Assembly (NCBI GenBank): GCA_031291415.1
Contig: JARLJB010000234.1
Span: forward strand, 1-61,454
Reading direction: 5' to 3'
Length of the DNA stretch: 61,454 nt
From: Telmatospirillum sp.
GTDB lineage: Bacteria > Pseudomonadota > Alphaproteobacteria > Rhodospirillales > Magnetospirillaceae
This document shows, piece after piece, positions 2,449-26,288 of the stretch (the stretch's first letter is position 1; every line of letters begins with the position of its first letter). The notes beneath the pieces were generated by a model. It saw only the letters and a program-made list of their open reading frames with translations. It was not told where the DNA came from and ran no database searches. Both the position numbers and the translations under genes were made by a program.

Positions 2449-2610
2449 GCCATAATCGACGGCGTTGCCATATTCATGGTTTCGGCTCGTATCAGTCGGA
2501 CGGAGTCCTTAATTTTTCGCGTACCAAGTAAACGTTTTCCATATTCAAATGCCCCCTTTGCGCATCCGGCTACGCAGGCTTCGGCACTAGGCGGGGGAAG
2601 GACACAGAAA

Positions 2611-3306: not shown

Positions 3307-3392
3307 CATTACCGGCAAGATCGCGCACGGCACCCACCGATCGGCCGGACGAACAGAGCGTCCGTCAATTATTTCAAGGTGGTGGCGTTTAG

Positions 3393-3446
3393 TATGATGA
3401 ATGAACGCATCTGGACGGATGTAATGATAAATGTTATATGATGAAT
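3393..3446. promoter_or_regulatory. Direct repeat in the promoter region of the GntR-GalK gene
   Basis: TATGATGAAT occurs exactly twice, at 3393-3402 and 3437-3446, 44 bases apart (about four helical turns), in an AT-rich stretch upstream of the GntR-galactokinase start. An ATAA-ATG-TTAT dyad lies between (3427-3437). This is a candidate operator for the downstream GntR-type protein. Confidence 0.35.
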
Positions 3447-3499
3447 AAAGGGATGCTGGTGGTCTGACCAGACTTTGTCCGTTTGGGGGCGTCAGGGCG

Positions 3500-5455
3500 G
3501 TGGAAAAAAAGCAGGGCAAGCCTCGGGTTCATGACGACATCGTGGAGCGCTTGGCGGAAAGCATTTTCAGCGGCGCGGTCAAGCCTGGCCAGACATTGCC
3601 AAGTGAGATGACACTGTGCCAGCAGTTTGGCGTCAGCCGAACCGCCATCCGCGAGGCCATAAGGGTGCTTTCGGCGAAGGGACTGGTGCAGGCCCGATCG
3701 CGAAGCGGAACGACCGTATTGGCGCCCAGCAACTGGAACTTCATGGATGCCGGTGTCATCGATTGGATGCAAAAATCATACAAAGGTGCCGATTTTTTCC
3801 GATCTTTGATTGAGGTTCGACTTTTGATCGAGCCATCGGTTGCCGTATTGGCGGCCGAACGGGCGACGGCGCAGGAAGTGGCCAATCTCGAGCAAGCCTA
3901 CAATACCATGGTGTCCGCCGAACCAGGCGATTTCGAAGCTTGCAGCCAAGCCAGTCTGGATTTTCACATTGGCGTGATCACCGCCAGCCACAATCTGGTT
4001 CTGCGCCATTTTGTCTCGGCCATCCGCGTGGCGCTGCTTGCCAGCTTTCGTATGACATTTCGCGCCAATTTGTCGTGGAATCGCACGATTGAACATCACC
4101 GTCAGGTCGTCGAGGCCATTCGGTTGCGCCAAGCCGAAGGGGCGAGGAAAGCCATGCTGGCGTTGCTTAACACCAGCCGCGACGAACTGCTGGCCGATCC
4201 GGAACCGCGGCGCTGGCCGACCCGCTCCTCCAATACGCCCTGTTTTCCCGCCGGGTTGGCTGGCGAGCATAGGCCGCCGGTCAGTCTTGACGGGCTGGTC
4301 GCGCAGTTTCGCAATCTCTTTGGCGAAGTGCCGCAAATCTACCGCGCACCGGGTCGGCTGAATTTGATCGGGGAGCACACCGATTACAACGACGGCTTCG
4401 TCCTGCCTGTGGCCTTGGACCTGTCGACCTGGGTGGCCATTTCACCGAGAACGGATCGTCGCGTCTGTATCCATACCGACGTGCTGTCGGAAGCGATTGA
4501 ATTTGATTTGGACGAGCCAGATCCAGAACGAAGGCAGGATTGGAGCGACTATGTCCGCGGCGTCGCGCTGATGCTTGAGCGAACCGGTCATTGGCTGAAG
4601 GGCGCCAATCTGCTTCTCAAAAGCGATGTATCGGTTGGCGCCGGCTTGGGATCGTCGGCGGCATTGGAGGCCTCGGTCGGCTATGCTCTCGTCCGCAATT
4701 CCGGGCGGACGATCGACCCGATCGAATTGGCCCGCTGCTGCCAACGGGCCGAAAACGAGTTCGTCGGCATGCGTTGCGGCATCATGGACCAGTTCATTTC
4801 GTGTCACGGCGCGGTCGACCATGCGGTGCTGCTTGACTGCCGCAGTCTGGAATCACGACTTGTGCCGATCGATCCGCGAGCTCGCTTGGTGATTTGCAAT
4901 ACCATGGTCCGTCACGAATTGGCTGGCAGCGAGTACAACCTGCGCCGGCAGGATTGCGAGCGCGGCGTGGCATTGTTGTCGCAAGCCTTGGGGCAGATCA
5001 CGGCGCTGCGCGATGTCACCGCTCCTCAATTGGATCGCTATGCCGGTCTGTTGCCTGAGGTCACTTACCGCCGCTGCCGACACGTCGTCAGTGAAAACGA
5101 TCGGGTGTTGCGGGCCGCCGCCGCCTTGGAAAACGGTGAACTGCATCTGTTCGGAAAGCTGTTGGGCGAATCGCACCGCAGCCTGCGTAACGACTTCCAA
5201 GTGAGCTGCCTGGAACTCGATCTAATGGTCGAGCTGGCTCTGTCTGTGGACGGCGTCTACGGCTCGCGTATGACTGGTGGCGGCTTTGGCGGTTGCACCA
5301 TCAACCTGGTCGAGGTTGGAGCCGTCGAACGATTTAGCGAAACGGTCTCGAAGGCCTATCAGGAAGCGACGGGACTGACACCCTCCATTTTTTCGTGTTT
5401 GCCCGGCGCGGCTGTCGGGGCGGAGACTCTTCTCAAGACTGCTGCCGTCCGGTGA
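3500..5455 (+). CDS. GntR/FCD transcription regulator fused to galactokinase
   Basis: One uninterrupted 651-codon frame begins at GTG 3500 with a G-rich Shine-Dalgarno region. Residues 1-75 are a GntR winged helix (LPSEMTLCQQFGVSRTAIRE). Residues about 95-240 are an FCD effector domain with Asp/His metal-ligand positions (LDFHIGVITASHN, TIEHHRQVV). A short Pro/Arg linker follows. Residues about 262-651 are a complete galactokinase: signature GRLNLIGEHTDYNDG, ATP motif VGAGLGSSAALE, catalytic Asp in GIMDQFISCHG, and MTGGGFGGC. Galactokinase makes galactose-1-phosphate from galactose and ATP. The kinase half is roughly 70% identical to the next gene. All kinase motifs look intact, so it may be bifunctional. 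In-frame internal starts at the junction lack a good ribosome site. Confidence 0.88.
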   Translation: MEKKQGKPRVHDDIVERLAESIFSGAVKPGQTLPSEMTLCQQFGVSRTAIREAIRVLSAKGLVQARSRSGTTVLAPSNWNFMDAGVIDWMQKSYKGADFFRSLIEVRLLIEPSVAVLAAERATAQEVANLEQAYNTMVSAEPGDFEACSQASLDFHIGVITASHNLVLRHFVSAIRVALLASFRMTFRANLSWNRTIEHHRQVVEAIRLRQAEGARKAMLALLNTSRDELLADPEPRRWPTRSSNTPCFPAGLAGEHRPPVSLDGLVAQFRNLFGEVPQIYRAPGRLNLIGEHTDYNDGFVLPVALDLSTWVAISPRTDRRVCIHTDVLSEAIEFDLDEPDPERRQDWSDYVRGVALMLERTGHWLKGANLLLKSDVSVGAGLGSSAALEASVGYALVRNSGRTIDPIELARCCQRAENEFVGMRCGIMDQFISCHGAVDHAVLLDCRSLESRLVPIDPRARLVICNTMVRHELAGSEYNLRRQDCERGVALLSQALGQITALRDVTAPQLDRYAGLLPEVTYRRCRHVVSENDRVLRAAAALENGELHLFGKLLGESHRSLRNDFQVSCLELDLMVELALSVDGVYGSRMTGGGFGGCTINLVEVGAVERFSETVSKAYQEATGLTPSIFSCLPGAAVGAETLLKTAAVR

Positions 5456-5504
5456 GCCGGGATAGGCGCTTAACTGTTCACTTCCTATCGACGGGGATGA
5501 TGTG

Positions 5505-6680
5505 ATGACCAACGCGAAGTCTCTCTCCGACGAATTCCGACGTGCCTGGGGTGCAACGCCTCGGCTTTATCGCGCGCCGGGACGTGTCAACCTGATGGGC
5601 GAGCACACCGATTACAACGAGGGATTCGTCTTGCCGGCGGCTCTCGAATTCTCGACGATGGCGGCCATTCTGCCCCGTCGGGATCGGCGCCTAAGGGTCC
5701 ATTCTCTGGCACAGTCCGAGTCTCTGGCGCAGTCCGAGACCGCTGAGTTCGATTTGGACGAGCCTGATCCTTCGCCTCGTCACGACTGGACCGACTATGT
5801 GTTCGGCGTCGCCATCATGCTCGAACGCGCCGGCTACCGCCTGTGCGGAGCCGATCTGATGCTGCAAAGCACGGTGCCGCGTGGCGCCGGGATGAGTTCT
5901 TCGGCGGCACTCGAAGTCTCGGTGGGCTTTGCCCTGCTTACGGAATCCGGGCTGACGGTCGATCTGATCGACTTGGCGCGTTGCTGCCAAAGGGCCGAGA
6001 ACGAGTTCGTCGGCATGCGTTGCGGCATCATGGATCAGTTCATCGCCTGCCATGGCGTGGCCGGCCATGCGCTGTTGCTCGATTGTCGAAGCTTGGAATT
6101 CCGGCTGGTGCCGGTCGATCCGCGGGCTTGCCTGGTGATCTGCAACACCATGGTCCGACACGAGTTGGCCAGCAGCGAATACAACCTGCGCCGCCAGGAC
6201 TGCGAGCGCGGTGTCGCGCTGCTGTCACAGGCCCTGGGGCCGATCAAGGCGTTGCGAGATGTCACGGTGGCAGAACTGGAGCAACACGCTGCTCTGTTGC
6301 CGGAGGTCACCTACCGCCGTTGTCGCCATATCGTCAACGACAACATCCGTGCCGTCCAAGCGGCCGAGGCCTTGGAAAAAGGTGATCTACATCGCTTCGG
6401 TGCACTGATGGCGGAGTCGCACATAAGCACGCGTGACGACTACGAGATCAGCTGTCGCGAACTCGATCTGATGGTCGAATTGGCGTTGCCGATCGAGGGC
6501 GTGTACGGATCGCGCATGACGGGCGGCGGATTTGGCGGCTGTACCGTCAGTCTGGTCGAGGCTGGAGCCGTCGAGCATTTCACCGAAACCATAGCCAAAG
6601 CTTATCGGGAGGCGACCGGGATCGTCCCGGAAATTTTCACATGTTCTCCCGGTCCGCACGTCGGACCCGTGGTTCTGTAG
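5505..6680 (+). CDS. galK: Galactokinase
   Basis: 391 residues of the GHMP kinase family, cytoplasmic, first step of the Leloir pathway. The ATG at 5505 has GGGGA seven bases upstream (a GTG at 5502 is also in frame). It carries GRVNLMGEHTDYNEG, the ATP motif PRGAGMSSSAALE, the catalytic Asp in GIMDQFIACHG and the C-terminal MTGGGFGGC. It starts 50 bases after the fused copy and is very similar to it, so the pair is a tandem duplication. Near residue 70 an 18-base tandem duplication (about 5703-5738) repeats LAQSES, extending a surface loop relative to the fused copy. Confidence 0.93.
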   Translation: MTNAKSLSDEFRRAWGATPRLYRAPGRVNLMGEHTDYNEGFVLPAALEFSTMAAILPRRDRRLRVHSLAQSESLAQSETAEFDLDEPDPSPRHDWTDYVFGVAIMLERAGYRLCGADLMLQSTVPRGAGMSSSAALEVSVGFALLTESGLTVDLIDLARCCQRAENEFVGMRCGIMDQFIACHGVAGHALLLDCRSLEFRLVPVDPRACLVICNTMVRHELASSEYNLRRQDCERGVALLSQALGPIKALRDVTVAELEQHAALLPEVTYRRCRHIVNDNIRAVQAAEALEKGDLHRFGALMAESHISTRDDYEISCRELDLMVELALPIEGVYGSRMTGGGFGGCTVSLVEAGAVEHFTETIAKAYREATGIVPEIFTCSPGPHVGPVVL

Positions 6681-6694
6681 CGGAGGAGAGGGCG

Positions 6695-7684
6695 ATGAAC
6701 GTTCTGGTGGTTGGTGGCGCCGGTTACATTGGAAGCGCGACTATCGTCCAGCTTCTGAAGGCCGGGCATAAGGTCGTCGCTTTCGATAATCTGAGCCATG
6801 GACACCCCGAGGCGATACCTGCGGGAGTTCCCTTGGTGGTCGGCGATATTGGTGATGCCGACGCCCTGGATGGCCTGTTCAAACGCTATCCGATCGATGT
6901 CGTCATGCATTTCGCCGCATTGATCGAGGCCGGCGAATCGATGAAGGCGCCGGAACAGTTCTTCCGAAACAATACGGCCAGTACGTTGACTTTGTTGGAA
7001 GCCATGCTGCGCCACAACGTGAAACGGCTGGTGTTTTCCTCGACCGCTGCATTGTTTGGCAATCCAGATCGTGTGCCGGTCGCCGAGGATGCTCCCTTAC
7101 AACCGACCAATGCCTATGGCGAATCGAAATTGCTGGTGGAGCGCATGCTCGACTGGCTGAATCGTATCCATGGCCTGCGGTTTGTCTGTTTGCGCTATTT
7201 CAATGCGGCCGGTGCCATCAGCCCAGATCGGGGAGAAGATCACCAGCCGGAATCCCATTTGGTGCCGCTGATTCTGAAGGTTGCCTTGGGGCAGCGGGAC
7301 TCGATTTCGGTATTCGGCACCGATTATCCGACGCCCGACGGAACCTGTGTACGTGATTACATTCACGTCGCCGATTTGGCGCAAGCGCATCTGTTGGCGC
7401 TGGATGCTTTGTCCGAGCACGACAGACTGCACTTCAATCTGGGCAACGGTGCCGGTTTCAGCGTCCGCGAGGTGGTCGAGGCGGCACGCAAGGTGACAGG
7501 CCATCCGATTCCTTGCATCGAGGGGCCGAGACGACCCGGTGACCCGGCCATTCTGGTCGCCGCATCGCAAAAGATCCGCAACGAGTTGGGGTGGCAGCCC
7601 CGATATACGTCGCTGGAAGAGATTATCCGAAGTGCGTGGGAATGGCACCGTGGTCACCCCAACGGTTATGCGAGTGCGAAATGA
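6695..7684 (+). CDS. galE: UDP-glucose 4-epimerase
   Basis: 329 residues. The start ATG at 6695 follows a strong GGAGGAGAGG site, 15 bases after galK. It is an extended short-chain dehydrogenase: the Rossmann motif GGAGYIGS at the N-terminus binds [11 protein letters not shown] supplies the catalytic Ser/Thr region and YGESK the Tyr-Lys pair. It interconverts UDP-galactose and UDP-glucose. Its stop overlaps the galT start (ATGA), so translational coupling is likely. The position in the galK-galE-galT order supports the GalE call over other sugar-nucleotide epimerases. Confidence 0.94.
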
Positions 7685-8736
7685 TGAATGGTCTGCAGCA
7701 GTCGTCCCACCGCCGCTACAACCCACTGATCCGCGAATGGATCCTGGTGTCCCCCCATCGGACACAGCGTCCCTGGCAGGGGCAAACCGAGAAACAAGAC
7801 ACGCCGACGGCGCGGACCTTCGATCCCGACTGCTATCTTTGTCCCGGTAACCGACGGGCCAATGGCGATCACAACCCGGCCTACGGGAGCACCTTTGTCT
7901 TCGATAACGACTTTGCGGCGCTCCGGCCCGATGCTCCTGTCGACGAATTTGACGAGGGCGGGTTGTTGCGAGCCAGCGGCGAACCCGGTCTATGCCGCGT
8001 GATTTGTGTCTCGCCACGGCATGACCTGACGATATCGCGGATGTCCGTTCCCGAAATTCGCCAGGTGGTCGATGTCTGGGGGCAGCAATATCGTGATTTG
8101 GGGAGCCTCGATTTCATCAATTCCGTGCAGATTTTTGAAAATCGCGGCGCCATGATGGGAGCGAGCAACCCGCATCCACACTGCCAGGTGTGGGCCAGTC
8201 ACAGCATTCCTAATGAAACCGCCAAGGAAGGGGCCGCTCAGGCGGACTATTGCCACGATCATCACTCGTGCCTGTTATGCGATTATTTGGCACTGGAGGA
8301 AAAATCCGGCGAGCGGATCATCTATCGCAATGATCATTTCGCGGTGCTGGTGCCGTTCTGGGCGATTTGGCCGTTTGAAACCATGGTTTTGCCACGTCGT
8401 CACATGGGGGCTCTGGATGAACTGACCTCCGACGAGGCGACGGCTTTGGCTGACGCGATAAGCCATCTGACCATTGCCTATGACAATCTTTTTGAAACGT
8501 CGCTTCCGTATTCGATGGGATTCCACCAAAAGCCCACCGATGGGCAAGACCATCCCGAATGGCATTTCCATGCCCATTACTATCCGCCGCTGTTGCGGTC
8601 GGCGACCATCCGGAAATTCATGGTGGGGTTCGAGATGTTGGGGTCGCCGCAACGGGACATCACCCCGGAAAGCGCCGCCCAACGGCTGCGCGATATGCCG
8701 GCGATCCACTATCTGGATGCCCCCGGCGGCCGTTGA
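7681..8736 (+). CDS. galT: Galactose-1-phosphate uridylyltransferase
   Basis: 351 residues. It starts at ATG 7681, overlapping the galE stop by four bases. It transfers UMP between UDP-glucose and galactose-1-phosphate via a uridylyl-His intermediate. The active-site motif NPHPHCQVW is present, as is the N-terminal Zn pair CYLC and the C-terminal [11 protein letters not shown] His cluster. It is the last gene of the plus-strand galactose operon and converges on nagA, 18 bases away, with no clear terminator between. Confidence 0.95.
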
Positions 8737-15294: not shown

Positions 15295-16329
15295 TCAGGC
15301 GGTCGCCAGACTGGCTTTCGCTTCCATCATCTGTTGCCAGGTCTCGTCGTCGACGTCGATTCCGTCGTGCGTCCGTTCGGCTTTTCGACGTTGCTCGGGC
15401 TCGCCCGGGAACAGGATCTCCTCGCCTTCGACGGTGCGCGATTGGCGGACCCAGGGCAGAAACGCATCGATTTCGGAGCGGAAGCTGTCGGCGCCGCCCA
15501 GCATGGCGGGGTTGATCAGGATGGACAGCATGCCGTTCAAGACCCGCATGTCGCCCGGAGTGGATTGACGCTCGGTCAGGCTGCCGGTCATGGCTGCACC
15601 CAGCAGGGAACAGATCAACGCCAGTCCGCCACCTTTATGCTTGCCGAAGGGAAGTAGCGCGCCGAAAGGTTCCTTGATCATGCAGGTCGGATCTGTCGTC
15701 GGTTGGCCATCGGCATCGACGACAAGGCCGGGTTCCAGCGGTTTTTCGGTGTTGAAGGCGACGCGGGCCTTACCGAGGGCGATGCCGCTGGTGGCGAAGT
15801 CGAGAATCATCGGTGTCTGGCCGTCGCGCGGCACCCCGACGCAAAATGGATTGGTCCCCAGCTTGGCATCGACGCCATTCCAGGGAGCGACCAGCGGGCG
15901 GAAGAACGCGTTGACGAAGTGGATCGAAACAAGACCGGCGCTTGCGCAACGCTCCGCCCAGGCGCCGATACGGGCCAAATGATGGGCATTCTTCAGGCTG
16001 ATGACGCAGACGCCGGCGCTTTTGGCACGCGCGATGCCGGCATCCATCACCTGGGCGCCGATCACTTGGCCATAACCGCTCTGGCCATCGAAAACCAGAA
16101 TGGCCTGATGGTCGGCCAGTAGTTTCGCCGAGGTGTTGGGTTTCAGGCCACCCTGCCTGATCGAGGCGACATAATGGGGAATCATGCCGACCCCATGGGA
16201 ATCGTGACCTTGGAGATTGGCCTCCACCAGATTGGTGGCAACGATTTTGGCTTCGTCCGCTGAACTTCCGGCCAGACGAACGATTTCGGCGACGGTCGCC
16301 GTGAGCTGTTGTGGTGAAAAGCGGGGCAT
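15295..16329 (-). CDS. Malate/L-lactate dehydrogenase family (Ldh_2) oxidoreductase
   Basis: 344 residues. ATG 16329 has GGAAGAG upstream. The Ldh_2 (YlbC/YiaK) family is a non-Rossmann NAD(P)-dependent dehydrogenase acting on 2-hydroxy acids, 2,3-diketo-gulonate, ureidoglycolate or delta-pyrroline carboxylates. Seen: the catalytic-His region NLQGHDSHGVGMIPHY near residue 45, KNAHHLARIG, and the cofactor segment TNPFCVGVP ... LDFATSGIALGKARVA. Substrate cannot be assigned. The gene is read alone on the minus strand and converges on ftsB. Confidence 0.85.
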   Translation of the reverse strand: MPRFSPQQLTATVAEIVRLAGSSADEAKIVATNLVEANLQGHDSHGVGMIPHYVASIRQGGLKPNTSAKLLADHQAILVFDGQSGYGQVIGAQVMDAGIARAKSAGVCVISLKNAHHLARIGAWAERCASAGLVSIHFVNAFFRPLVAPWNGVDAKLGTNPFCVGVPRDGQTPMILDFATSGIALGKARVAFNTEKPLEPGLVVDADGQPTTDPTCMIKEPFGALLPFGKHKGGGLALICSLLGAAMTGSLTERQSTPGDMRVLNGMLSILINPAMLGGADSFRSEIDAFLPWVRQSRTVEGEEILFPGEPEQRRKAERTHDGIDVDDETWQQMMEAKASLATA

Positions 16330-16682
16330 GGACTCTTCCGGGTGCTTAAGAACGATGGGTTTGACACAAGGATCGGACCTGGCCCGCCCAGTCATTGAGA
16401 CCGGCAAACGATTGGACCATCACGGAGGCGACCGACCCGGATTCCCATCCTACGGATCTTCTGTGGCTCGGCAACAGTTAGAAAACTTTTTTTCTTCCTG
16501 GGCCGGCCCAGAAACGCGAAATAATGTTTCGTGACTGCTCGCATCCTCATTTCCCGAGCAAGTTGCTTCAGGGTTTCGGTCAAATGGCATGACCCTATCG
16601 GCGCTCCGGAGAGGAAAGGGCTTGCTCCAGATCGTCCTGCAATCGATGACGCGGCTGTCAGCCATTGTCGCGACGTCCTCGG
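16330..16682. other. Intergenic region without a supported gene
   Basis: 353 bases between the Ldh_2 gene and the first GlpP-fusion gene. It contains a perfect 14-bp palindrome CTGGGCCGGCCCAG at 16498-16511 next to a run of T on the plus strand. No coding frame resembles a known protein, and no remnant of a transposase catalytic ORF was recognised. Confidence 0.4.
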
Positions 16683-17687
16683 CTAAAGAATCCAGAGGGA
16701 CGAATTACTTGTGGCCACCGAAGTTACGCCATGCTGCACCAATTCCTCGATCTGACGCATGCTGTTGACCAGGCCGGTTGCGACAACAGGCAGCTCTGGA
16801 TTGGATGCGCGCAAAGAAGGCACCAACAATGGAGCGACGACCGCGGGCAGCACTTCAATGGCATGAGGCACAAAGTGGTGGAGTGAGCGGGTGATGTTAC
16901 GCGAGGCGATCGAGTCGACGGCAAACGTTCTCTGCATGGCGATAATACCTTGCGAATGCGCTGCCCTGAGAACGGACTGGTGGGTCGAGACAACTCCCGC
17001 GACTCCCAACTTGACCAACAAAGTGACCGCATCACAATCCTGGGCGAAACCTGTCAGCAGATCGAGGTTGGCGATGGGAAGTTTGCCGGCGCCACGCAGT
17101 TTTCTCAGTACGTATCCGATCGTCATCGGATTGCCATAGAGCAACGAGACAACCAGCGAGGGAGAAGCAATCGCGGCCGGAATGAACTCGAAACTTCGCA
17201 GGGCCGGAATGATGCGCGACTGCTCCAGTATGCCGCGAACAGTCTTATGCATCTCGGATGCCTGGCCATTGGCGGCTTCCATCGGGACGCCTTGCGCATC
17301 GACCTCGCCTTGTTCGGCAGGCACGGTCTCATCGGCGCGCGACGCTCCCGGTTCTGCGGGAGGAACGTCAGCCGCGCTTTGTTCGCAATCCGTCAGACCG
17401 CAATAGGATCCATCGTCCTGCAAAGCCTCAGAAGAAATGCGGTACTTGAGAAGGGCGCGCCGCTCGAGCAAGAAATCGGTCACGATCTGCTTGAGAATGC
17501 AGTTTTCATCCTCCAGCATCTTCATCCCGGGTTTGCCGCTTGCTTGCGAACCGTACTGCTCCATCCACTGATGAAGCACGTCTTCTTCAACACCGTAGAT
17601 GTGAGACAAATCCGCGACGCCCATGCCCGATTCAAGCTGGCGTAGAATTTTGCAGATTTCTGTTTTGCTTAAGCTGGGATTGCCCAC
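16683..17687 (-). CDS. IS3-OrfA-type HTH fused to GlpP (G3P-responsive antiterminator) domain, copy 1
   Basis: 334 residues from GTG 17687 (GGGGG upstream); a TTG at 17705 is also in frame, but copy 2 supports the GTG. Residues about 6-45 are a helix-turn-helix like IS3/IS911 OrfA transposase (ICKILRQLESGMGVADLSHI, then HQWMEQYG). About 55-84 are a zipper-like coil (MLEDENCILKQIV). An acidic linker follows to about 150. Residues 153-334 match GlpP of Bacillus: LDLLTGF, GVVST, QRTFAVDS, EVLPAVVAPLL, ATGLVNSMRQIEEL, VATSNSSLW. GlpP binds glycerol-3-phosphate and antiterminates glp leaders in Firmicutes. It is the last gene of the glp block, so autoregulation by G3P is plausible. No transposase catalytic domain is attached. 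Confidence 0.85.
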   Translation of the reverse strand: MGNPSLSKTEICKILRQLESGMGVADLSHIYGVEEDVLHQWMEQYGSQASGKPGMKMLEDENCILKQIVTDFLLERRALLKYRISSEALQDDGSYCGLTDCEQSAADVPPAEPGASRADETVPAEQGEVDAQGVPMEAANGQASEMHKTVRGILEQSRIIPALRSFEFIPAAIASPSLVVSLLYGNPMTIGYVLRKLRGAGKLPIANLDLLTGFAQDCDAVTLLVKLGVAGVVSTHQSVLRAAHSQGIIAMQRTFAVDSIASRNITRSLHHFVPHAIEVLPAVVAPLLVPSLRASNPELPVVATGLVNSMRQIEELVQHGVTSVATSNSSLWIL

Positions 17688-17809
17688 AAAATTCCCCCGT
17701 TCCAAATATTTTTACAGAGAAGCGATGTTTTTCATAAGTCTTCCCTAAAATCATTTCTACAAGATCTCCCCCCTGCAGAGGGCGGCTTTCTATATACTCT
17801 CGAATTGTA

Positions 17810-18046
17810 TCAATCACCCCAGCACAGAGCTGGCGTTTTTACCGGCGCGTCCCAATATCCGACCAACTCGTCGTTGGCGCGCAACACCGTGATCGAGGTT
17901 CCGGCCATTTCGAGGCTGATGATGTAGCTGCCGACCAGGCTGCGGACGATTTTGAGGCCGTGCTTTTGGGCGATTGCCGCTGCCTTCCGGTAAATGATGT
18001 AAAGTTCGATCAGTGGCGTGCCGCCCATGCCGCTGCCGTCGCCGTT
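17810..18046 (-). pseudogene. dhaK: Remnant of dihydroxyacetone kinase subunit DhaK (C-terminus only)
   Basis: About 76 codons read GMGGTPLIELYIIYRK ... SLVGSYIISLEMAGTSITVL ... DAPVKTPALCWGD, a clear match to the last fifth of DhaK (E. coli ends DAPVHTPALNWGK). The remaining 280 or so N-terminal residues, including the His that binds dihydroxyacetone, are absent. The frame stays open upstream to an ATG at 18097, but that part is a GC-rich inverted repeat (18057-18094), probably the deletion junction. DhaK phosphorylates dihydroxyacetone; its decay leaves the island without that step. Confidence 0.8.
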
Positions 18047-18144: not shown

Positions 18145-18873
18145 TTACAGAATACCGGTCGCCTTGCAGATGATTGCTCCGACGATGCCGCCGAGCAACG
18201 GAGCGAGGATCGGCACCAGGGCATATCCCCAATCGGAGCCGCCCTTGCCGGCGATCGGCAGGAGTTGATGGGCGATACGCGGGCCCAGGTCACGAGCTGG
18301 ATTGATGGCATATCCGGTCGGTCCGCCGAGGGACAGGCCAATGCCCCAGATCAGCATGCCCCAGAGGTAGGGGCCAAAGCCCGCCGTCAGGCCGTTGGCG
18401 GCCAAGCCCTTGGAGCCGATGGAGAATCCCACGACCACCAGCAGGATGGTGACGAGGAACTCGCACAGTGCGTTGGTGGGAATATTGCGGATGGCTGGGG
18501 CGGTGCAGAAGATGCCGAGCTTCGCGCCCTTGTCTTCGGTGATTTCCCAGTGCGGCAGATAGATCAGCCAAACCAGGATGCCGGCGCAGAAGGCGCCGGC
18601 CATCTGCGCCGCGATATAGGGCACCACAGTTTCGTAGGTGCCGTTGGCGACCGCAAGCGCAATGGTCACCACCGGATTGAGATGCGCCACACCACCGACA
18701 CCAAGGCTGGTGATGATGCCGCAAAGGACCGCGATACCCCACCCGGCGGTGATGACGATCCAGCCGCTGTTGCCTCCCTTGGAATCTTTTAAAAGCACGT
18801 TGGCGCAGACGCCGTCACCCATCAGGATCAGCACGAGCATCCCTAAGAATTCACCAAAAATCGGGCCATTCAT
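18145..18873 (-). CDS. glpF: Aquaglyceroporin / glycerol facilitator
   Basis: 242 residues, inner-membrane channel with about six membrane helices and two re-entrant loops. ATG 18873 follows AAGGGATGGA. The first pore motif is HLNPVVT (NPV in place of the usual NPA) and the second GYAINPARDLGPR, where the Asp after NPAR is typical of glycerol-conducting GlpF rather than water-only aquaporins. The insertion before the second motif (FSIGSKGLAANGLTAGFGP) also matches GlpF. It is cotranscribed with glpA and glpK on the minus strand. Confidence 0.9.
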   Translation of the reverse strand: MNGPIFGEFLGMLVLILMGDGVCANVLLKDSKGGNSGWIVITAGWGIAVLCGIITSLGVGGVAHLNPVVTIALAVANGTYETVVPYIAAQMAGAFCAGILVWLIYLPHWEITEDKGAKLGIFCTAPAIRNIPTNALCEFLVTILLVVVGFSIGSKGLAANGLTAGFGPYLWGMLIWGIGLSLGGPTGYAINPARDLGPRIAHQLLPIAGKGGSDWGYALVPILAPLLGGIVGAIICKATGIL

Positions 18874-19030: not shown

Positions 19031-20653
19031 TCATTCCTCCTGACCGGCGTGGAAATTGTAGGTCACGCCGAATAGGTTTTGGCTCAGGTAAAGCTGTTCG
19101 ATCTGCTTGCCGCGATGGACAAAATCCTGACCTTTCCAACGTTCGTCGAGATAGCGGCTGAATTCGTCGGCGGCTTCATCCGCCGACCACTGACCGCTGC
19201 GGAATCCGGCGAGCATGGCTTTGTAGCCGCAGAAAGTGCCCTGGCAGGGACCGAATCCCAAGCGCGTCCGGCGTCCCAGGTCGCTGATGCCACGAATCGG
19301 CGCGGGATAGTCGTCGCCCAGGACATAGTCGATTTCAGCGCGGGTCACCTGTTCGCATTCACAGACGATTTCGGCCATTTCCTGATGCGCCTCGATGATT
19401 CGGACGATCTGGCCCAGCGCCGGCCCCAGCCGGCGTTCGGCGATGGCCGCCGCCTGGGGTGGCAATATCCTGCGGGCGCGATTCAAGGTCTGCGCGTCGA
19501 TCAACGCCCGTAGTGGCTTGGTCGCGGTGCTGCAGGGGCGGTCGTTACCGAGCTTTCTCGCCACCAGGTCCGACGTGACCTCTGCCATCAGGCGGTAGGT
19601 GGTGAGCTTGCCGCCGACGATGGAGACGAAACCTCCGAGTTCGTTCAGATTCTCATGGTCGAGCAGGGCGAAGGCGCGGCTGATCTCGCGTCCGCCGGCG
19701 CTGCCGGCGTCCTTCGGAATGTAAAGCGGACGAACACCCGAAAAGATGCGCAGGATACGGGCTTCGGCCAAGGCCGGAATCAGTTCGATGCCGAGGTCGC
19801 GCAGATAGTCAATTTCCGCATCGTCGGCTGTCAGTCCTTCCGGGCCCGGTACCGTTTTCGAACTGGTGCCAAGGAGGCAGACCGGGCCGGACGGGACCAC
19901 GAGGTCGGCATCGCCCGGCTTGCGGCAACGGTTGACGACACGGCTGACCAAGGTGTGATTGAATACCAGCAGCGACCCTTTGTCGCACCGTACCGGCACC
20001 TCGATTCCGGCCAAGGCAGCCACCTTCTGGGCCCAACCACCGGACGCGTTGACCACTATTTCGCAACGGATACGGTTGATCTCTCCCGTCCGGGTATCGC
20101 TGTAATCGACCGAACGGACGCGGCCGTCTTCGATGTTGATGGCCGTGACCTCGCTGCAAGTACGGAGTCCGGCGCCCAGAGAGACGGCAGCCGTGACATT
20201 GGCCAGCGTCAGTTGAAAGACGTCGATATGGGCGTCGGCGCAGGTGAAAGCGCCCAGAATGCCCTTCGGCAGGTTGGGCTCCATCTCGAGGACTTCGTCG
20301 GTCGACAGTCGCTTCGTCGGCAGGCCGACTTTCTCGCTGGCCTGTTCCCACTGCGCGAAATAGGCGGGATCGTCCTGGGGATATTTCACGAAGATGCCGC
20401 CGACGTCGTGAACGCAATGCGGCGCGATCTGCTTGATGATGCGGTTTTCCAGCACGCATTCCCGCGCAGCCTCGGCGTCCTTCACGACATAGCGGGCGCC
20501 GGAATGCAGCAGTCCGTGGCAGCGGCCGGTGGCACCGTTGGCGATGTCGCTCTTTTCCAGAAGGACTGCCTTGATGCCTCGTAACGACAGATCCCAAAGA
20601 ATGCCGGTGCCGGTGGCTCCTCCACCGATGATTACGACTTGTGTTGAGTCCAT
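19031..20653 (-). CDS. glpA: Glycerol-3-phosphate dehydrogenase, GlpA type with C-terminal Fe-S domain
   Basis: 540 residues. ATG 20653 follows GAGAAGGG. An N-terminal FAD dinucleotide motif VVIIGGGATGTGILWDL and a DAO domain with LLEKSDIANGATGRCHGLLHSGARY and SIVGGKLTTYR are followed, from about residue 430, by a BFD-like [2Fe-2S] domain with CEC and GPCQGTFC cysteines. This C-terminal domain distinguishes GlpA of the anaerobic GlpABC complex from aerobic GlpD. It oxidises G3P to dihydroxyacetone phosphate. No glpB or glpC is present in the window, so the electron acceptor is unclear. Confidence 0.85.
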   Translation of the reverse strand: MDSTQVVIIGGGATGTGILWDLSLRGIKAVLLEKSDIANGATGRCHGLLHSGARYVVKDAEAARECVLENRIIKQIAPHCVHDVGGIFVKYPQDDPAYFAQWEQASEKVGLPTKRLSTDEVLEMEPNLPKGILGAFTCADAHIDVFQLTLANVTAAVSLGAGLRTCSEVTAINIEDGRVRSVDYSDTRTGEINRIRCEIVVNASGGWAQKVAALAGIEVPVRCDKGSLLVFNHTLVSRVVNRCRKPGDADLVVPSGPVCLLGTSSKTVPGPEGLTADDAEIDYLRDLGIELIPALAEARILRIFSGVRPLYIPKDAGSAGGREISRAFALLDHENLNELGGFVSIVGGKLTTYRLMAEVTSDLVARKLGNDRPCSTATKPLRALIDAQTLNRARRILPPQAAAIAERRLGPALGQIVRIIEAHQEMAEIVCECEQVTRAEIDYVLGDDYPAPIRGISDLGRRTRLGFGPCQGTFCGYKAMLAGFRSGQWSADEAADEFSRYLDERWKGQDFVHRGKQIEQLYLSQNLFGVTYNFHAGQEE

Positions 20654-20757
20654 GACGCCCTTCTCTGCAGGGGGGGGCGGCAAGCGAGATGGCTGCCGTC
20701 ATGCCGTAGCCGACCGGAAATCCGGTTCTTCTCGATGCGGGACGGATGGCAAAATCT

Positions 20758-21432
20758 CTACCCCTGACTTCGGTAAAAACGGCCATCCGCGTTCTTAGGC
20801 GGTATTTCCGAGTTGAGAAGCAACTTGGCCAACTCGCGGCTGGAGTCCGGAGACTCAAAAAGCATCGTTTTCATGCCGACCCGCTCCGCTCCGTCGATGT
20901 TCGGTTGTCGATCGTCAATGAAGAGAGCTTCAGTCGGGTGGACGCCGAGCAATTTGGCCGTATGCAGAAAAATTCCGGACGACGGCTTGGCGATGCGCAA
21001 TTCGCAAGAAAAGACCTGAACGTCAAACTCACTGAACCATAAGTGATTTTTCCGGACAAAAGACAGCATGTCGAATTGAATGTTCGACAAAACAGCGACC
21101 TTCAAACCGGTGGTGCGCGCAGTCCGCACCATCGCTACGGAATTGGGGTTTGGGCGGCCCCATTGCTGATTATCGAGATCGACCAGTCTGCGGACGTCGT
21201 CGTCCGTCAGTTCGCGTCCGAAGGTGGTCGCAATATTTCGCCAATAGGATGCGGAGTCGAATTGGACCATGTCGTAGGCATCACGGTTCCTCCAATACTC
21301 CTGATGAAACGAGGAAAGTGGAGCACCGACGATCTCTGCCAGAGCCTGCCAATCCCGATCGGTGGGCGAAAACGTGAGAACCCCCCCGTAATCGAAGATG
21401 ATGGAGCGAAATTGAGACAATAAATGAGTCAT
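20758..21432 (-). CDS. HAD-superfamily hydrolase
   Basis: 224 residues. ATG 21432 is chosen because GGAG lies seven bases upstream and the HAD fold starts just after it. The nucleophile motif is FDYGGVLTF, in which the usual second Asp (D+2) is Gly, as in epoxide-hydrolase N-terminal-like and some phosphatase HADs. Later motifs are AVLSNIQ, the Lys of RIAKPSSGIF and the acidic FIDDRQPNIDGAERVG. Lacking the D+2 acid it may be a weak or altered phosphatase. It lies between glpK and glpA, so a phosphorylated C3/C4 compound is a reasonable but unproven substrate. Confidence 0.8.
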   Translation of the reverse strand: MTHLLSQFRSIIFDYGGVLTFSPTDRDWQALAEIVGAPLSSFHQEYWRNRDAYDMVQFDSASYWRNIATTFGRELTDDDVRRLVDLDNQQWGRPNPNSVAMVRTARTTGLKVAVLSNIQFDMLSFVRKNHLWFSEFDVQVFSCELRIAKPSSGIFLHTAKLLGVHPTEALFIDDRQPNIDGAERVGMKTMLFESPDSSRELAKLLLNSEIPPKNADGRFYRSQG

Positions 21433-21487
21433 TCCGATTCTCCAGATAACTTTGGAACCGTTATCGAGCTCATACAACGCAAGATGT

Positions 21488-21521
21488 GGATGAGAACAAA
21501 GCACTTTCCTCGTTCTCATCC
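21488..21521. repeat. Perfect 10-bp inverted repeat between glpK and the HAD gene
   Basis: GGATGAGAAC (21488-21497) and GTTCTCATCC (21512-21521) form a stem with a 14-base loop in the 125-base glpK-HAD spacer. Just beside it, on the minus strand, CGATAGATCT is a 10-mer shared with the operon promoter palindrome near 25012. No T-run, so an mRNA structure or protein site rather than a terminator. Confidence 0.45.
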
Positions 21522-21557: not shown

Positions 21558-23150
21558 TCATGAGACCTGCAACATGCCGGACTCGGCGTAAGCTCGAGGG
21601 CGAGCCTTCTCCAGTTCTTGGCTGCGCACGGATTCTTCCGCTTTCGTTTTGCATTCAGCGAGCTTTGTAACCCATCCGCAGGACAGTTTCAGGGCTTCCT
21701 GCCAGCCACCATAGAGTTCCTGGCGGTGTACTTCCGTCATATCCGGCTGGAACACCTTATCGACCTGCCACTGCGCCGCGATCTCATCGGTGCTCTTCCA
21801 AAAGCCGCAAGCCAGACCGGCCAAATAGGCAGCCCCCAGTGCCGTCATTTCGGTAACCTTGGGCCGCACAACCGGGATTCCCAGAATGTCGGACTGGAAC
21901 TGGCAGAGCAGATTGTTTTTCGTCGCCCCGCCATCCACTCTCAGTTCAGGAATCACTATGCTCAGGTCGGCCACGACAGCATTGATAATATCCTTGGTCT
22001 GGTAGGCCATAGCTTCCAGCGCGGCGCGAATAAGATGATCACCGGTGGTGCCGCGAGTAATTCCGACGATGAGGCCCCGGGCGTACATATCCCAATGCGG
22101 GGCGCAAAGTCCGACAAACGCAGGCACCAGATACACTCCGCCGGTGTCTGCAACCATGTTGCCGTACCACTCCGTATCGGCAGCGTTCCGGATGAGCCTC
22201 ATGTTGTCGCGAATCCACTGGACCGTGGCACCAGAAATGAAGACCACGCCTTCCAGGGCATAGTTTATTTTTCCGTTCAGGCCCCAGGCAATGGTGGTCG
22301 TGAGACCGTCACGGAAAAGCGGCTTCTCGCCGGTATTCATCACGAACACGCCCGCGGTACCGAAGGTGTTCTTGGCCATGCCTGGTTTGTAACAGGCCTG
22401 ACCGAACAGCGCGGCCTGCTGGTCGCCGGCGTCGCCAAGAATCGGAATTTCCGCACCGAAAATAGATTTTGTGGTGATGCCGAATTGTCCGGAGGATGGA
22501 AGCACCTTGGGAAGAACGCTCATCGGAACATTCAGCTTGCGGCACAGTTCTTCATCCCACTTAAGATCGATAATGTTGAACAGCATCGAGCGGGAGGCGT
22601 TGGAATAATCTGTGACGTGAGACTTTCTGCCGGTCAGATTCCAGATCAACCAACCATCAATGTTGCCGAACAGCAGGTCGCCTTTCGCGGCTTTCTCCCG
22701 GGCACCTTCGACGTGGTCGAGAATCCAGACAATTTTTGAAGCCGAAAAATAGGCGTCGTTAATGAGACCCGTCTTCTCGCGAATCTCCCTGTCATAACCG
22801 ACCGCTTTCCATTCTTCGACGATATCGGCGGTTTGGCGAGACTGCCATACGATGGCATTGTAAATTGGTTTACCTGTATTTTTGTCCCAAACAACCGTGG
22901 TTTCTCTCTGGTTGGTGATGCCGATTGCGCAGATCTGTTCTGGGGAAATGCCTGCTTTTTCAATAGCTTTTCGTGCCACGTTGATCTGCGCTTCGAGAAT
23001 CTCCTCCGGGTCATGCTCTACCCAGCCTGGGCGTGGAAATATTTGGGAAAACTCCTCGGCAACATCACTGACGCTTTTCCCTTCCTGATCGAACACAATT
23101 GCGCGAACCCCGGTAGTGCCTTCGTCGAGAGCCATTACATAGTTTTTCAT
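21558..23150 (-). CDS. glpK: Glycerol kinase
   Basis: 530 residues of the FGGY family. ATG 23150 has GGGAAGAG upstream. The N-terminal LDEGTTGVRAIVFD phosphate motif, the glycerol-binding Arg-Glu in NQRETTVVW, the Trp in IVWQSRQT, the Tyr in DAYFSASK and the Asp in GDAGDQQAALFGQ all match true glycerol kinases. It makes sn-glycerol-3-phosphate, the presumed signal for the GlpP-domain proteins at either end of the island. About 30 residues longer than E. coli GlpK, with a charged C-terminal tail (from about residue 500) of unknown role. Confidence 0.92.
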   Translation of the reverse strand: MKNYVMALDEGTTGVRAIVFDQEGKSVSDVAEEFSQIFPRPGWVEHDPEEILEAQINVARKAIEKAGISPEQICAIGITNQRETTVVWDKNTGKPIYNAIVWQSRQTADIVEEWKAVGYDREIREKTGLINDAYFSASKIVWILDHVEGAREKAAKGDLLFGNIDGWLIWNLTGRKSHVTDYSNASRSMLFNIIDLKWDEELCRKLNVPMSVLPKVLPSSGQFGITTKSIFGAEIPILGDAGDQQAALFGQACYKPGMAKNTFGTAGVFVMNTGEKPLFRDGLTTTIAWGLNGKINYALEGVVFISGATVQWIRDNMRLIRNAADTEWYGNMVADTGGVYLVPAFVGLCAPHWDMYARGLIVGITRGTTGDHLIRAALEAMAYQTKDIINAVVADLSIVIPELRVDGGATKNNLLCQFQSDILGIPVVRPKVTEMTALGAAYLAGLACGFWKSTDEIAAQWQVDKVFQPDMTEVHRQELYGGWQEALKLSCGWVTKLAECKTKAEESVRSQELEKARPRAYAESGMLQVS

Positions 23151-23497
23151 GGTCTGTCTCTTCCCGGTTAGTTGTATTTATTTCTAAGTTCTGTGCATGC
23201 TGCTTTCGCCATAACGGCACAATGTTTTGACAATGCGCGCGATAAAATCAGTTCTTTGCAGGCCGTACCGTCTTCGGCTGAGAATTGTCGGCCTGCAGTT
23301 CAAGTATCTAAGGATCTGGAGAAAATAATCTCTCCAGATCCTTAGATTTCGTACGATGTCGCCTCATCCCAAAGGCATAACGGTTGCCCATGCCGAATTA
23401 GCGATAATTGTCATCGTTGGCGATGCGGTCCGCTGCGAATTAGTTACACAATCAGTCCGCAATCCGACATATGGCAGCTGCCAGTTTTTCTTAGCTT
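23151..23497 (-). promoter_or_regulatory. Structured spacer between the RuBisCO-like gene and glpK
   Basis: 347 bases without a gene. Two hairpins are visible: a perfect 17-bp stem (23306-23322 with 23331-23347, eight-base loop) and a 9-bp stem TGCAGGCCG / CGGCCTGCA (23257-23265 with 23289-23297). Neither is followed by a T-run in the operon direction. They may separate transcripts, stabilise mRNA ends, or form a leader of glpK. Confidence 0.55.
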
Positions 23498-24826
23498 CTA
23501 AGCTTCTATTTCATAGAGCTTGCTATAGTCGTCTTCGCCGTAAACGCGCCAGGTATCGATGGCGGCCTGCAACTCGGGGTGCTTTTTGCCGGCATCCCTG
23601 ATATCGATGTGGTCCATCACCGCATCGATAACCTGCCGGAAAGCCATTGCTCCAGCCCTCGCTCCCATGGGATGCCCATGGATTCCGGCACCAGCGCCGA
23701 CAATAAAGTCGGTCCCCAATTGATCGGCAAGATAAGGAACCATTCCGGGGGTCACGCCGCCGCCAATCATGTTGAACATCGGCTTGATGTGGTACATGGG
23801 GGAGTGCGTAACTTGGAAGACCCGAATGAATTTTTCCTGCAGGGCGTTGAACTTTGCCGAGGGGGCGACATTGAGCGTAATGTCTGCGCCGCAGAGGCGG
23901 ATCAGCTTTTGCGCAACTTCCGTGCTGATGCCCTGGAACGGCGAAACTGTCTGTGCGCCGCCATAGCAGGTGTGAGCACAGATCGGGACGTTGATGTTCG
24001 GGTCTTCTGCCAGCATGCGCAATGCCGAAAATCCAGTTCCAAACGCGTCAACCATGATAGCGTTGGCACCCGCCTCAATAGCCTTGTAGGCATTGTCCTT
24101 CAGACGAACGATCTCGTCGGTGACGTTAACGGTATAGAGTGTCTTTTCGCCCTTTTCACGGTCAGCTCTGTGGGCAGAGTCCATATAGGCCTTGATGCGA
24201 TCTTCCTGATGAGAAAATGCCGGACTGCCGGCGATCAGCTCGTCGTCCTTGATCCAGTCGGTTCCACCCACCGCCGCTTCATAGAACAACTTTGCCCCTG
24301 CGGCCGGTGTGATTCCTGTGCAAGGCTTGATCATGTTGTTCAGTAGAGGGCGTTCGGGGACGTTTAAGTACTTGCGAACGCCTGCAATGCCAAACTTTGG
24401 TCCCTTGAACTGTTTGACGTAGGACTTCGGGAATTCCAGGTCGACCAGTTTCAGGTTCGGCATCGAGGAGATGTTGCCGATGACCGAAGAGAGCATCAGG
24501 GGAATGTTGTCGTAGAAATCAACCCATGGATAGGCGATCCTGACGATGGCCCATCGTGGTTGGTCTTTGGGCAGGTTTGCTATCAGTTCGTAGTTGGGGA
24601 CTGAATAAATGCCGATAACCTTGGCCGCGTATTTTTCGCGTACTTCGTCGGTTTCGCCCGGTACCCGGTACCAAGAACCGGTGGATTGCTCGATCGCGAT
24701 TGCCGACGATTTCGCCACCAGATCTGCCTGAGGACCACCGCCGACAAAATACGTCGCTACAATGTAGTCTTCGCCGACCAGACCTTCACTGGTAGGAAAC
24801 AACAAAGGATCATATTCGTTTTTCAT
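23498..24826 (-). CDS. RuBisCO-like protein (form IV type)
   Basis: 442 residues. ATG 24826 follows GAGG. It aligns along the whole RuBisCO large subunit. Retained by eye: Glu46 in EQSTG, Asn118, Lys167 (IKP), the carbamate/metal triad Lys193-Asp195-Glu196 (WIKDDE), His285, and a Lys near the loop 6 position (APSAK). Changed: Lys177-equivalent is Cys169, Arg295-equivalent is Thr286, and the active-site His327 and Ser379 positions are not kept. This argues against bisphosphate carboxylation and for a form IV enolase/isomerase/decarboxylase-like activity. It is the first gene of the glycerol operon. Relatives act on methylthioribulose or oxo-isoapionate phosphates, but no such partner genes are here. 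Confidence 0.85.
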   Translation of the reverse strand: MKNEYDPLLFPTSEGLVGEDYIVATYFVGGGPQADLVAKSSAIAIEQSTGSWYRVPGETDEVREKYAAKVIGIYSVPNYELIANLPKDQPRWAIVRIAYPWVDFYDNIPLMLSSVIGNISSMPNLKLVDLEFPKSYVKQFKGPKFGIAGVRKYLNVPERPLLNNMIKPCTGITPAAGAKLFYEAAVGGTDWIKDDELIAGSPAFSHQEDRIKAYMDSAHRADREKGEKTLYTVNVTDEIVRLKDNAYKAIEAGANAIMVDAFGTGFSALRMLAEDPNINVPICAHTCYGGAQTVSPFQGISTEVAQKLIRLCGADITLNVAPSAKFNALQEKFIRVFQVTHSPMYHIKPMFNMIGGGVTPGMVPYLADQLGTDFIVGAGAGIHGHPMGARAGAMAFRQVIDAVMDHIDIRDAGKKHPELQAAIDTWRVYGEDDYSKLYEIEA

Positions 24827-24895
24827 GGTCCGATACCTCGCCTTTGTGACGGTTGTGCTTATCTGGATGCGGGTTTTATTCCGCTATAGGCAAAG

Positions 24896-24967
24896 AAAAA
24901 GCCGCCCGAAAACACACATAGGCCAACTGGCTACTGCCAACTTGTCCTATTCGTGTTTTCGGGCGGC
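24896..24967 (-). terminator. Intrinsic terminator in the leader of the RuBisCO-like/glp operon
   Basis: A perfect 15-bp stem, GTGTTTTCGGGCGGC at 24953-24967 with its complement at 24901-24915, encloses a 37-base loop that can fold further (ATAGG / CCTAT, TGGC / GCCA). On the minus strand the GC-rich base of the stem is followed at once by TTTTTCTTT (24900-24892). No minus-strand gene lies upstream, so it sits inside the leader, about 65 bases before the RuBisCO-like start, as expected for attenuation/antitermination control. Confidence 0.85.
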
Positions 24968-25009
24968 TCGTCGAATCACTCTGCCGCACGTAAATATGTA
25001 TCACCGAAC

Positions 25010-25038
25010 ACGATAGATCTATCTGTGACGCGCGTCAA
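25010..25038 (-). promoter_or_regulatory. Candidate sigma-70 promoter with 12-bp palindromic operator
   Basis: On the minus strand TTGACG (25038-25033) is followed after 17 bases by TATCGT (25015-25010). The perfect palindrome GATAGATCTATC (25012-25023) overlaps the -10 element and is flanked by CAC/GTG arms with a one-base offset. The predicted transcript would carry a leader of about 175 bases including the terminator at 24896-24967. Confidence 0.55.
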
Positions 25039-25283: not shown

Positions 25284-26288
25284 GTGTGCAATCCCAGCTT
25301 AAGCGAAACAGAAATTTGCAAGATCCTGCGTCAGCTTGAATCGGGTATGGACGTTGCGGACCTGTCTCACATCTACGGTGTTGAAGAAGACGTGCTTCTG
25401 CAGTGGAAGGAGCGGTACGGCTCGCAAGCAAGTGGCAAACCCGGGATGAAGATGCTGGAGGATGAGAATTGCATTCTCAAGCAGATCGTGGCCGATTTTT
25501 TGCTCGAGCGGCGTGCGCTTTTCAAGCACCGCATTTCTTCTGAGGCTTTGCGGGACGATGGATCCTATTGCGGTCTGACGGATTGCGGACAAAGCGCGGC
25601 AGACGTGCCTTTTGCAGAACCGGGGGCGTTGCGTGCCGATGAGACCGCGCCTGCCGAACATGGTGAAGGCGATGTGCCGGGCTTCCCCATGGAAGCCGCC
25701 GATGGCCAGACATCCGAGATGCATAAGACTGTTCGCGGCATACTGGAGCGGTCGCGCATCATTCCGGCCCTGCGAAGTTTCGAATTCATTCCGGCTGCGA
25801 TTGCCTCTCCCTCATTGGTTGTCTCGTTGCTCTATGGCAATCCAATGACGATCGGATACGTACTGAGAAAGCTGCGTGGCGCCGGCAAACTTCCCATCGC
25901 CAACCTCGATCTCCTGACTGGTTTCGCCCAGGATTGTGATGCGGTCGCCTTGTTGGTCAAGCTTGGAGTCGCGGGAGTTGTCTCGACCCGTCAGTCCGTT
26001 CTCAGGGCAGCGCATGCGCAAGGCATTATCGCCATGCAGAGAACTTTTGCCGTCGACTCCATCGCCTCGCGCAACATCACCCGCTCGCTCCACCACTTTG
26101 TTCCGCATGCCATTGAATTGCTGCCCGCGGTCGTCGCTCCATTGTTGATGCCCTCCTTGCGCGCGACCAACCCAGAGTTGCCTGTCGTGGCGACCGGCCT
26201 AGTCAACAGCATGCGTCAGATCGAGGAATTGGTGCAGCATGGCGTAACTTCCGTGGCCACAAGTAATTCGTCCCTCTGGATTCTTTAG
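25284..26288 (+). CDS. IS3-OrfA-type HTH fused to GlpP (G3P-responsive antiterminator) domain, copy 2
   Basis: 334 residues from GTG 25284, with GGAACCGGAG upstream, matching the start of copy 1. An in-frame ATG at 25173 would add 37 unrelated residues. HTH (about 6-45, ILRQLESGMDVADLSHIYG), zipper-like coil (about 55-84), acidic linker, then a full GlpP domain (153-334). About 28 residues differ from copy 1, most of them in the HTH and linker; the GlpP halves are nearly identical. Known GlpP proteins have no DNA-binding domain, so this fusion may act on DNA, RNA or both. It diverges from the glycerol operon, as a local regulator would. The two copies could have different DNA targets because HTH residues differ. 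Confidence 0.85.
   Translation: MCNPSLSETEICKILRQLESGMDVADLSHIYGVEEDVLLQWKERYGSQASGKPGMKMLEDENCILKQIVADFLLERRALFKHRISSEALRDDGSYCGLTDCGQSAADVPFAEPGALRADETAPAEHGEGDVPGFPMEAADGQTSEMHKTVRGILERSRIIPALRSFEFIPAAIASPSLVVSLLYGNPMTIGYVLRKLRGAGKLPIANLDLLTGFAQDCDAVALLVKLGVAGVVSTRQSVLRAAHAQGIIAMQRTFAVDSIASRNITRSLHHFVPHAIELLPAVVAPLLMPSLRATNPELPVVATGLVNSMRQIEELVQHGVTSVATSNSSLWIL

Follow-up and report, generated by a model that had tools for sequence, protein, structure and literature searches.

A fusion of an IS3 OrfA-like module with GlpP in Telmatospirillum, and a putative antitermination leader preceding a run of glycerol genes

This study focused on a 61,454-nt stretch of DNA (the window) from a genome of the genus Telmatospirillum (7.14 Mb in 412 contigs), which carries two copies of a 334-residue protein that joins an N-terminus like the OrfA of IS3-family insertion sequences to a full-length GlpP domain. 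By domain and fold the fusion is a GlpP and not a transposase, and purifying selection acts on both its OrfA half and its GlpP half. The architecture is new among everything searched, and the mode of action is probably one that is known already. The reading preferred here, to which about even credence is given, is that the fusion is a glycerol-3-phosphate (G3P)-responsive antiterminator on the leader of a RuBisCO-like-protein/glpK/glpA gene run, its N-terminus serving as a zipper oligomerisation module and not as a DNA reader.

Results

Copy 2 of the fusion occupies 25,284–26,288 on the plus strand, and copy 1, of the same architecture and inverted relative to it, 16,683–17,687 on the minus strand; they form a 1053-nt inverted repeat of 90% identity. 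The first-pass annotation had given copy 1 the right coordinates and domains without naming its strand, and a plus-strand reading of that segment has stops. One uninterrupted frame covers both halves in each copy (381 aa between stops in copy 2 and 342 aa in copy 1), which rules out two separate genes or a frameshift. Translation probably begins at a GTG, at 25,284 in copy 2 and at 17,687 in copy 1, as GGAG and GGGGG lie 6 nt upstream. Between the copies, dN/dS (NG86) is 0.12 over residues 1–84, 0.42 over residues 85–152 and 0.09 over residues 153–334, with no frame break. These ratios, the domain matches, the identity to OrfA and the similarity of the copies indicate that the fused form is a real, maintained gene. 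Between its halves lies a linker under relaxed selection (residues 90–139 of copy 2; 25,551–25,700, plus strand) that is predicted to be disordered (pLDDT 33–46 over most of it).

The GlpP domain is complete, and in copy 2 spans residues 153–334 (25,740–26,285, plus strand). In each copy the Pfam profile PF04309 falls on residues 159–332, scoring 135.9 bits (E 1.3e-39) and 136.7 bits (E 6.9e-40) where the cut-off is 27, with profile positions 1–173 of 173 covered. The GlpP barrel of the AlphaFold model is confident (pLDDT mostly >90), and its best PDB matches are 3kts, with a TM-score of 0.91 by target length, and 1vkf. With the GlpP family (PF04309; Bacillus subtilis GlpP, 3kts, 1vkf) the fusion shares the complete domain, the fold, a glp neighbourhood and a leader with a terminator and possible antiterminator, but it differs in its 95-residue OrfA-like N-terminus and linker, in being present as two gene copies, and in changes at near-invariant positions (I251M, L256A and G304T). 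A tree groups its GlpP domain with that of locus L060 (support 90/88), a placement that is unsure, the meeting of long branches having been flagged. The genome holds a third, ordinary GlpP (C320), which sits behind glpABC. Ordinary GlpP, which lacks an HTH, is also found in Rhodospirillales, Acidobacteriota and other groups and is not confined to Firmicutes, a detail in which the earlier description was wrong.

The N-terminus matches IS3 OrfA over its full length. HTH_Tnp_1 (PF01527) covers residues 7–69 and 7–67 of the two copies (E 5.9e-5 and 3.6e-4), scoring 23.6 and 21.1 bits and so narrowly missing the curated cut-off of 24.1, the better by 0.5 bits; of the two profiles that had been predicted to match both proteins, PF04309 is therefore above its cut-off and PF01527 just below. 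IS3-type OrfA ORFs in same-family genomes align at 30–39% identity over some 65–100 residues (best E 2.9e-9, at 39%), and the 88-position PADLOC model PDLC02590 matches residues 6–79 (E 4.1e-11). NCBIfam transpos_IS3 matches residues 12–82 (E 0.0039) with a score far below its cut-off, as expected because OrfA is only part of the fusion protein. To judge from the sequence comparisons, a chance N-terminal match of a GlpP paralogue-like kind is not expected at these E-values, and the annotation of an IS3 OrfA-like N-terminus and a full-length GlpP within one 334-residue protein was borne out. PDLC02590 bears the PADLOC name DrmC, but the model, matched here at 25,284–25,523, looks like an IS3 OrfA and not like a defence protein.

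Both the three helices and the leucine zipper of IS3 OrfA are present, by residues and by predicted structure. Residues 5–46 of copy 2 (25,296–25,421, plus strand) form a three-helix HTH part (predicted helices 8–19, 24–31 and 35–49; pLDDT in the 80s for residues 11–40), and residues 58–89 (25,455–25,550, plus strand) a long leucine-zipper-like helix modelled at low confidence; the zipper residues L58, E59, E61, N62, L65, K66 and L79 are the same in all 16 sequences compared. When only the N-terminus was used for a PDB fold search, nothing matched at E 0.001 or better, and a profile search against solved structures was weak, with 2jn6 at E 0.0038 followed by an unrelated kinase at 0.012. Neither fusion contains the catalytic OrfB part, nor do the ten neighbouring ORFs that were scanned. 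A recent IS3 insertion is not supported: a search of the genome itself with the N-terminus, at E up to 10, gave no further match (three in all), and the scanned neighbours include no transposase.

Relative to IS3 OrfA, the fusion thus retains the full-length match with its three helices and zipper residues, but differs in lacking the catalytic part of the transposase, in falling under the Pfam cut-off and in having an acidic HTH. The net charge of the HTH part is −3/−2 in the fusions against +2 to +7 in 20/20 same-family IS3 OrfAs, and that of the third helix −2/−4 against +1 to +3, so that the positively charged, DNA-binding HTH typical of IS3 OrfA is not found. An account of IS2 transposase (PMC3219604) describes DNA binding by the OrfA parts of the IS3 family and a disturbance of binding by third-helix substitutions that remove positive charge, such as R50H. 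Together with the acidic HTH this makes oligomerisation a better reading than ordinary DNA binding, though neither is proved. The OrfA-derived N-terminus is probably in the main an oligomerisation module that joins copies of the protein, which its residues make more likely than a DNA reader, and it possibly adds tethering.

The two copies flank a run of genes and its leader. On the minus strand the order is a RuBisCO-like protein of the form IV type (23,498–24,826), which is the first gene after the leader, glpK for glycerol kinase (21,558–23,150), a HAD-family phosphatase (20,758–21,519), a glpA-type glycerol-3-phosphate dehydrogenase (19,031–20,683; TIGR03377 above cut-off), a MIP-family channel of GlpF/LarD-like type (18,145–18,873), a DhaK remnant (17,810–18,028), fusion copy 1 and a member of the malate/lactate dehydrogenase family (Ldh_2; 15,295–16,407), while copy 2 is divergent from the gene for the RuBisCO-like protein. 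The remnant consists of 72 aa from the C-terminal end of DhaK (Dak1; PF02733 positions 247–313 of 313, E 2e-19) and lies in the 457-nt gap between copy 1 and the channel gene. Also upstream of copy 1 is AGAGTATATAGAAAGCCGCCC (17,780–17,803, minus strand), recognised by eye and with no model match, a possible relic of a GlpP-type leader that has lost its 5′ stem and terminator. With an N-terminus that is related to IS3 OrfA and kept by selection, and with glp genes beside both copies, the earlier suggestion that an insertion-sequence module was domesticated is supported for this putative glycerol regulator.

Other features of the window deserve mention. The RuBisCO-like protein that heads the glycerol gene run is nearest to MtnW-type enolases, at scores below the NCBIfam cut-offs, and nothing was found in the open-licence literature on such a protein sharing an operon with glycerol kinase. 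The gap between its gene and glpK contains a near-perfect palindrome, TCTAAGGATCTGGAGAGATTATTTTCTCCAGATCCTTAGA (23,306–23,347, minus strand; −29.4 kcal/mol), without a T tail. At 3,500–5,455 (plus strand) lies another fusion of a regulator with a metabolic protein, a 651-aa ORF with GntR (residues 12–73), FCD (103–224) and galactokinase (269–620) domains, followed by a second galactokinase (5,502–6,680), an epimerase (6,641–7,684) and GalT (7,591–8,736).

The leader that opens the glp run (24,894–24,987, minus strand) resembles the antiterminator/terminator switches found next to ordinary glpP. It contains two mutually exclusive hairpins: a putative antiterminator, GCGGC..GCCGC (24,963–24,987, minus strand; −9.3 kcal/mol alone), and an intrinsic terminator (24,899–24,969, minus strand) that overlaps its 3′ arm. 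A terminator with an overlapping alternative hairpin is what a GlpP target should have, although the loop is divergent and the score of the leader overlaps those of generic terminators. The loop, AGAGTGATTCGACGA, is without the second AGAGAA kept by ordinary leaders, and a scan for two-repeat loops missed the window leader. Upstream is a weak promoter-like site (25,010–25,038, minus strand), one of 5 sites found against 5.9 expected by chance.

The window leader aligns with the leaders of six ordinary-GlpP loci and was matched at 32.1 bits (E 5.3e-8) by a model built without the window, a score that falls among the 28–33.8 bits of generic terminators in genomes without GlpP; among those listed, the GCGGCAGAG half is lacking. 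With filters off it scored 15.7 bits (E 0.002), still the best in 16.5 kb. The window has a single instance of the core pattern GCGGCAGAG-N6-14-AGCCGCC, and 100 shuffles have none. A looser pattern gave five matches in the 7.1-Mb genome, three of them with a terminator (the window leader, a glpK leader and a chemotaxis-receptor leader); since the reversed control also gave three matches, the pattern does not amount to proof by itself. Only two terminators in the genome have the form AGCCGCCC..GGGCGGCTTTTT, and these are in the window glp leader and the glpK leader. Rfam at its gathering thresholds had no match in the window, and below them only mir-1277 (32.4 bits against 81), which was taken as chance; the leader at the ordinary GlpP locus C320 has seven sub-threshold Rfam matches.

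At all six ordinary-GlpP loci, one in the same genome as the window and five in others, the arrangement GCGGC-AGAG..GAGAA-GCCGCC..terminator stands between glpP and glpK, that is, GCGGC, a loop of AGAGA..AGAGAA, GCCGC and then a terminator that reuses GCCGC. These loci, which occur in Telmatospirillum and its relatives in the order glpABC-glpP-[leader]-glpK, share their leader type and gene content with the window but differ from it in that GlpP stands alone; the window has, behind its leader, the additional RuBisCO-like protein along with the glp genes. The terminator helix has two-sided changes at 9 of its 21 pairs, and pairing holds in 98.4% of cells against 53% at most when slid. For the antiterminator, a chosen set of 12 sequences shows pairing in 98.3% of cells and two-sided changes in 7 cells (0/500 shuffles as high), while the number of pairs with a two-sided change (2/5) is not above shuffles; this count left out L052 and the identical or near-identical rows L058, L059, L104 and L043, and L066 is misaligned. 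Taken alone, the antiterminators of seven leaders are weak, with folding energies of −3.5 to −9.3 kcal/mol where the terminators have −28 to −49; such weakness is expected if the hairpin depends on a protein to hold it.

Ordinary GlpP was found in 10 of the 317 genomes of the order. The leader model matched at 37 bits or more in nine of these ten, and the tenth matched on a direct search of the locus, whereas only one of the 307 order genomes without a GlpP match (G197) reached this score; the 37-bit line was drawn after the results had been seen, and the window leader lies below it. Among 15 genomes outside the order, eight had leader matches of 20.9–32.1 bits, which is within the range of generic terminators. 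The leaders of L052 and L066, beside glpD and glpP, are alike by eye. The two-repeat loop scan gave 15 matches over 27 sources, several of them chance-like (L054, L062, L068 and the minus strand of L061), and missed L052 and L056; downstream of a Lachnospiraceae match that was examined (L063) are genes for a metallophosphatase and an MFS transporter.

Leaders of the GlpP type also stand in front of other genes. In two Telmatospirillum genomes they lie directly upstream of methyl-accepting chemotaxis proteins (L103, 5,786–5,854; L104, 6,572–6,641), an arrangement that suggests a chemoreceptor under G3P control. Locus L060 (1,342–6,546) has a leader of this type followed by a sugar-type ABC transporter, glpP and a glycerol-3-phosphate dehydrogenase gene. 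The L103 locus further contains an ORF (2,374–4,101) in which T6SS Hcp and phage-lysozyme domains are joined.

The fusion was absent elsewhere in 55 genomes of the family, in 317 of the order (E up to 1e-15) and in samples of 385 from the class and 398 from the phylum, sets that overlap and all include the genome of the window; the search for other proteins with both domains, which the first-pass annotation had suggested, thus returned none beyond that genome. Short-peptide scans of genome contigs and viral contigs, whose reach is limited to close relatives, found no fusion, and of 189 plasmid records with a match none covered 80%. All 26 GlpP loci taken from genome contigs hold a GlpP frame, and in 0/26 does that frame carry an OrfA match, with an OrfA profile that includes the fusion itself. 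No description of a GlpP with an added HTH was found in the open-licence literature.

Discussion

In Bacillus, GlpP-controlled promoters are described as consisting of a promoter, a GlpP site and a terminator in the 5′ UTR (PMC9604022), and the antiterminator is described as being bound by GlpP that carries G3P (PMC7430163). By analogy, G3P-dependent antitermination on leader RNA would be the likeliest action of the fusion, because the leader resembles the switches of ordinary GlpP. At high G3P the GlpP domain would stabilise the weak GCGGC..GCCGC antiterminator (24,963–24,987, minus strand) in the nascent leader, and the stabilised hairpin would block the overlapping terminator, allowing the RuBisCO-like-protein/glpK/glpA run to be read. 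The OrfA-derived zipper may oligomerise the protein, so that several GlpP domains would act together on one leader. Binding of G3P and of RNA by the fusion, and its use of this leader in place of the ordinary GlpP, are presumed in this scheme. A bolder version is offered only tentatively: that a transposon-derived module made an RNA antiterminator promoter-tethered or cooperatively oligomerising, acting on the diverged GlpP leader of a glycerol operon whose first gene encodes a RuBisCO-like protein, with the gene pair and leader having a specificity of their own apart from ordinary GlpP.

The first-pass annotation had allowed for action on DNA, on leader RNA or on both. A DNA-binding transcription factor, with an operator recognised by the OrfA HTH and a GlpP domain confined to sensing G3P, would fit the predicted HTH fold, the purifying selection on residues 1–84, the DNA binding described for IS3-family OrfA parts and the position of copy 2 divergent from the glp run, which is a usual one for a regulator. 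It is nevertheless unlikely, given the reversed charge of the HTH part and its third helix, the differences between the copies at 3 of 17 positions in residues 30–46 (dN/dS 0.53, on few changes) and the presence of a GlpP-type RNA switch at the head of the operon. Action on DNA is accordingly disfavoured, while action on leader RNA is supported by the antiterminator/terminator leader in front of the first gene of the run, which is like those beside ordinary glpP genes. Unlikely too is an antiterminator whose N-terminus parks it at the promoter, on DNA or RNA polymerase, from where GlpP is handed to the emerging leader; two conserved modules joined by a long flexible linker, and a leader directly adjoining copy 2, would suit such an arrangement, but the acidic HTH would not.

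The ordinary GlpP (C320) could itself control the leader of the RuBisCO-like protein gene, leaving the fusion to do something else, such as competing with or modulating it through mixed oligomers. The genome does carry an ordinary glpABC-glpP locus, and the leader type is that found beside ordinary glpP genes. However, the leader and gene run are flanked by two fusion genes and not by the ordinary one, and the loop has diverged from that of ordinary leaders, which makes this explanation quite improbable. That the OrfA piece is a neutral passenger in a degrading region, as the DhaK remnant beside copy 1 and the weakly constrained linker might hint, is very unlikely with the frame intact in both copies and a dN/dS of 0.12 over residues 1–84.

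If the preferred reading of the fusion as a G3P-responsive antiterminator is true, the domestication of an insertion-sequence domain within a regulator that acts on RNA would represent an unusual route to a new regulator, in which the protein gained an oligomerisation or tethering part and not a DNA reader. The comparison also yields a candidate GlpP site outside Bacillota, consisting of a weak hairpin with an AGAGA-type loop and a 3′ arm shared with the terminator. This candidate site recurs at glpK leaders and at chemotaxis-receptor leaders in Telmatospirillum, which makes GlpP control directly testable in Pseudomonadota.
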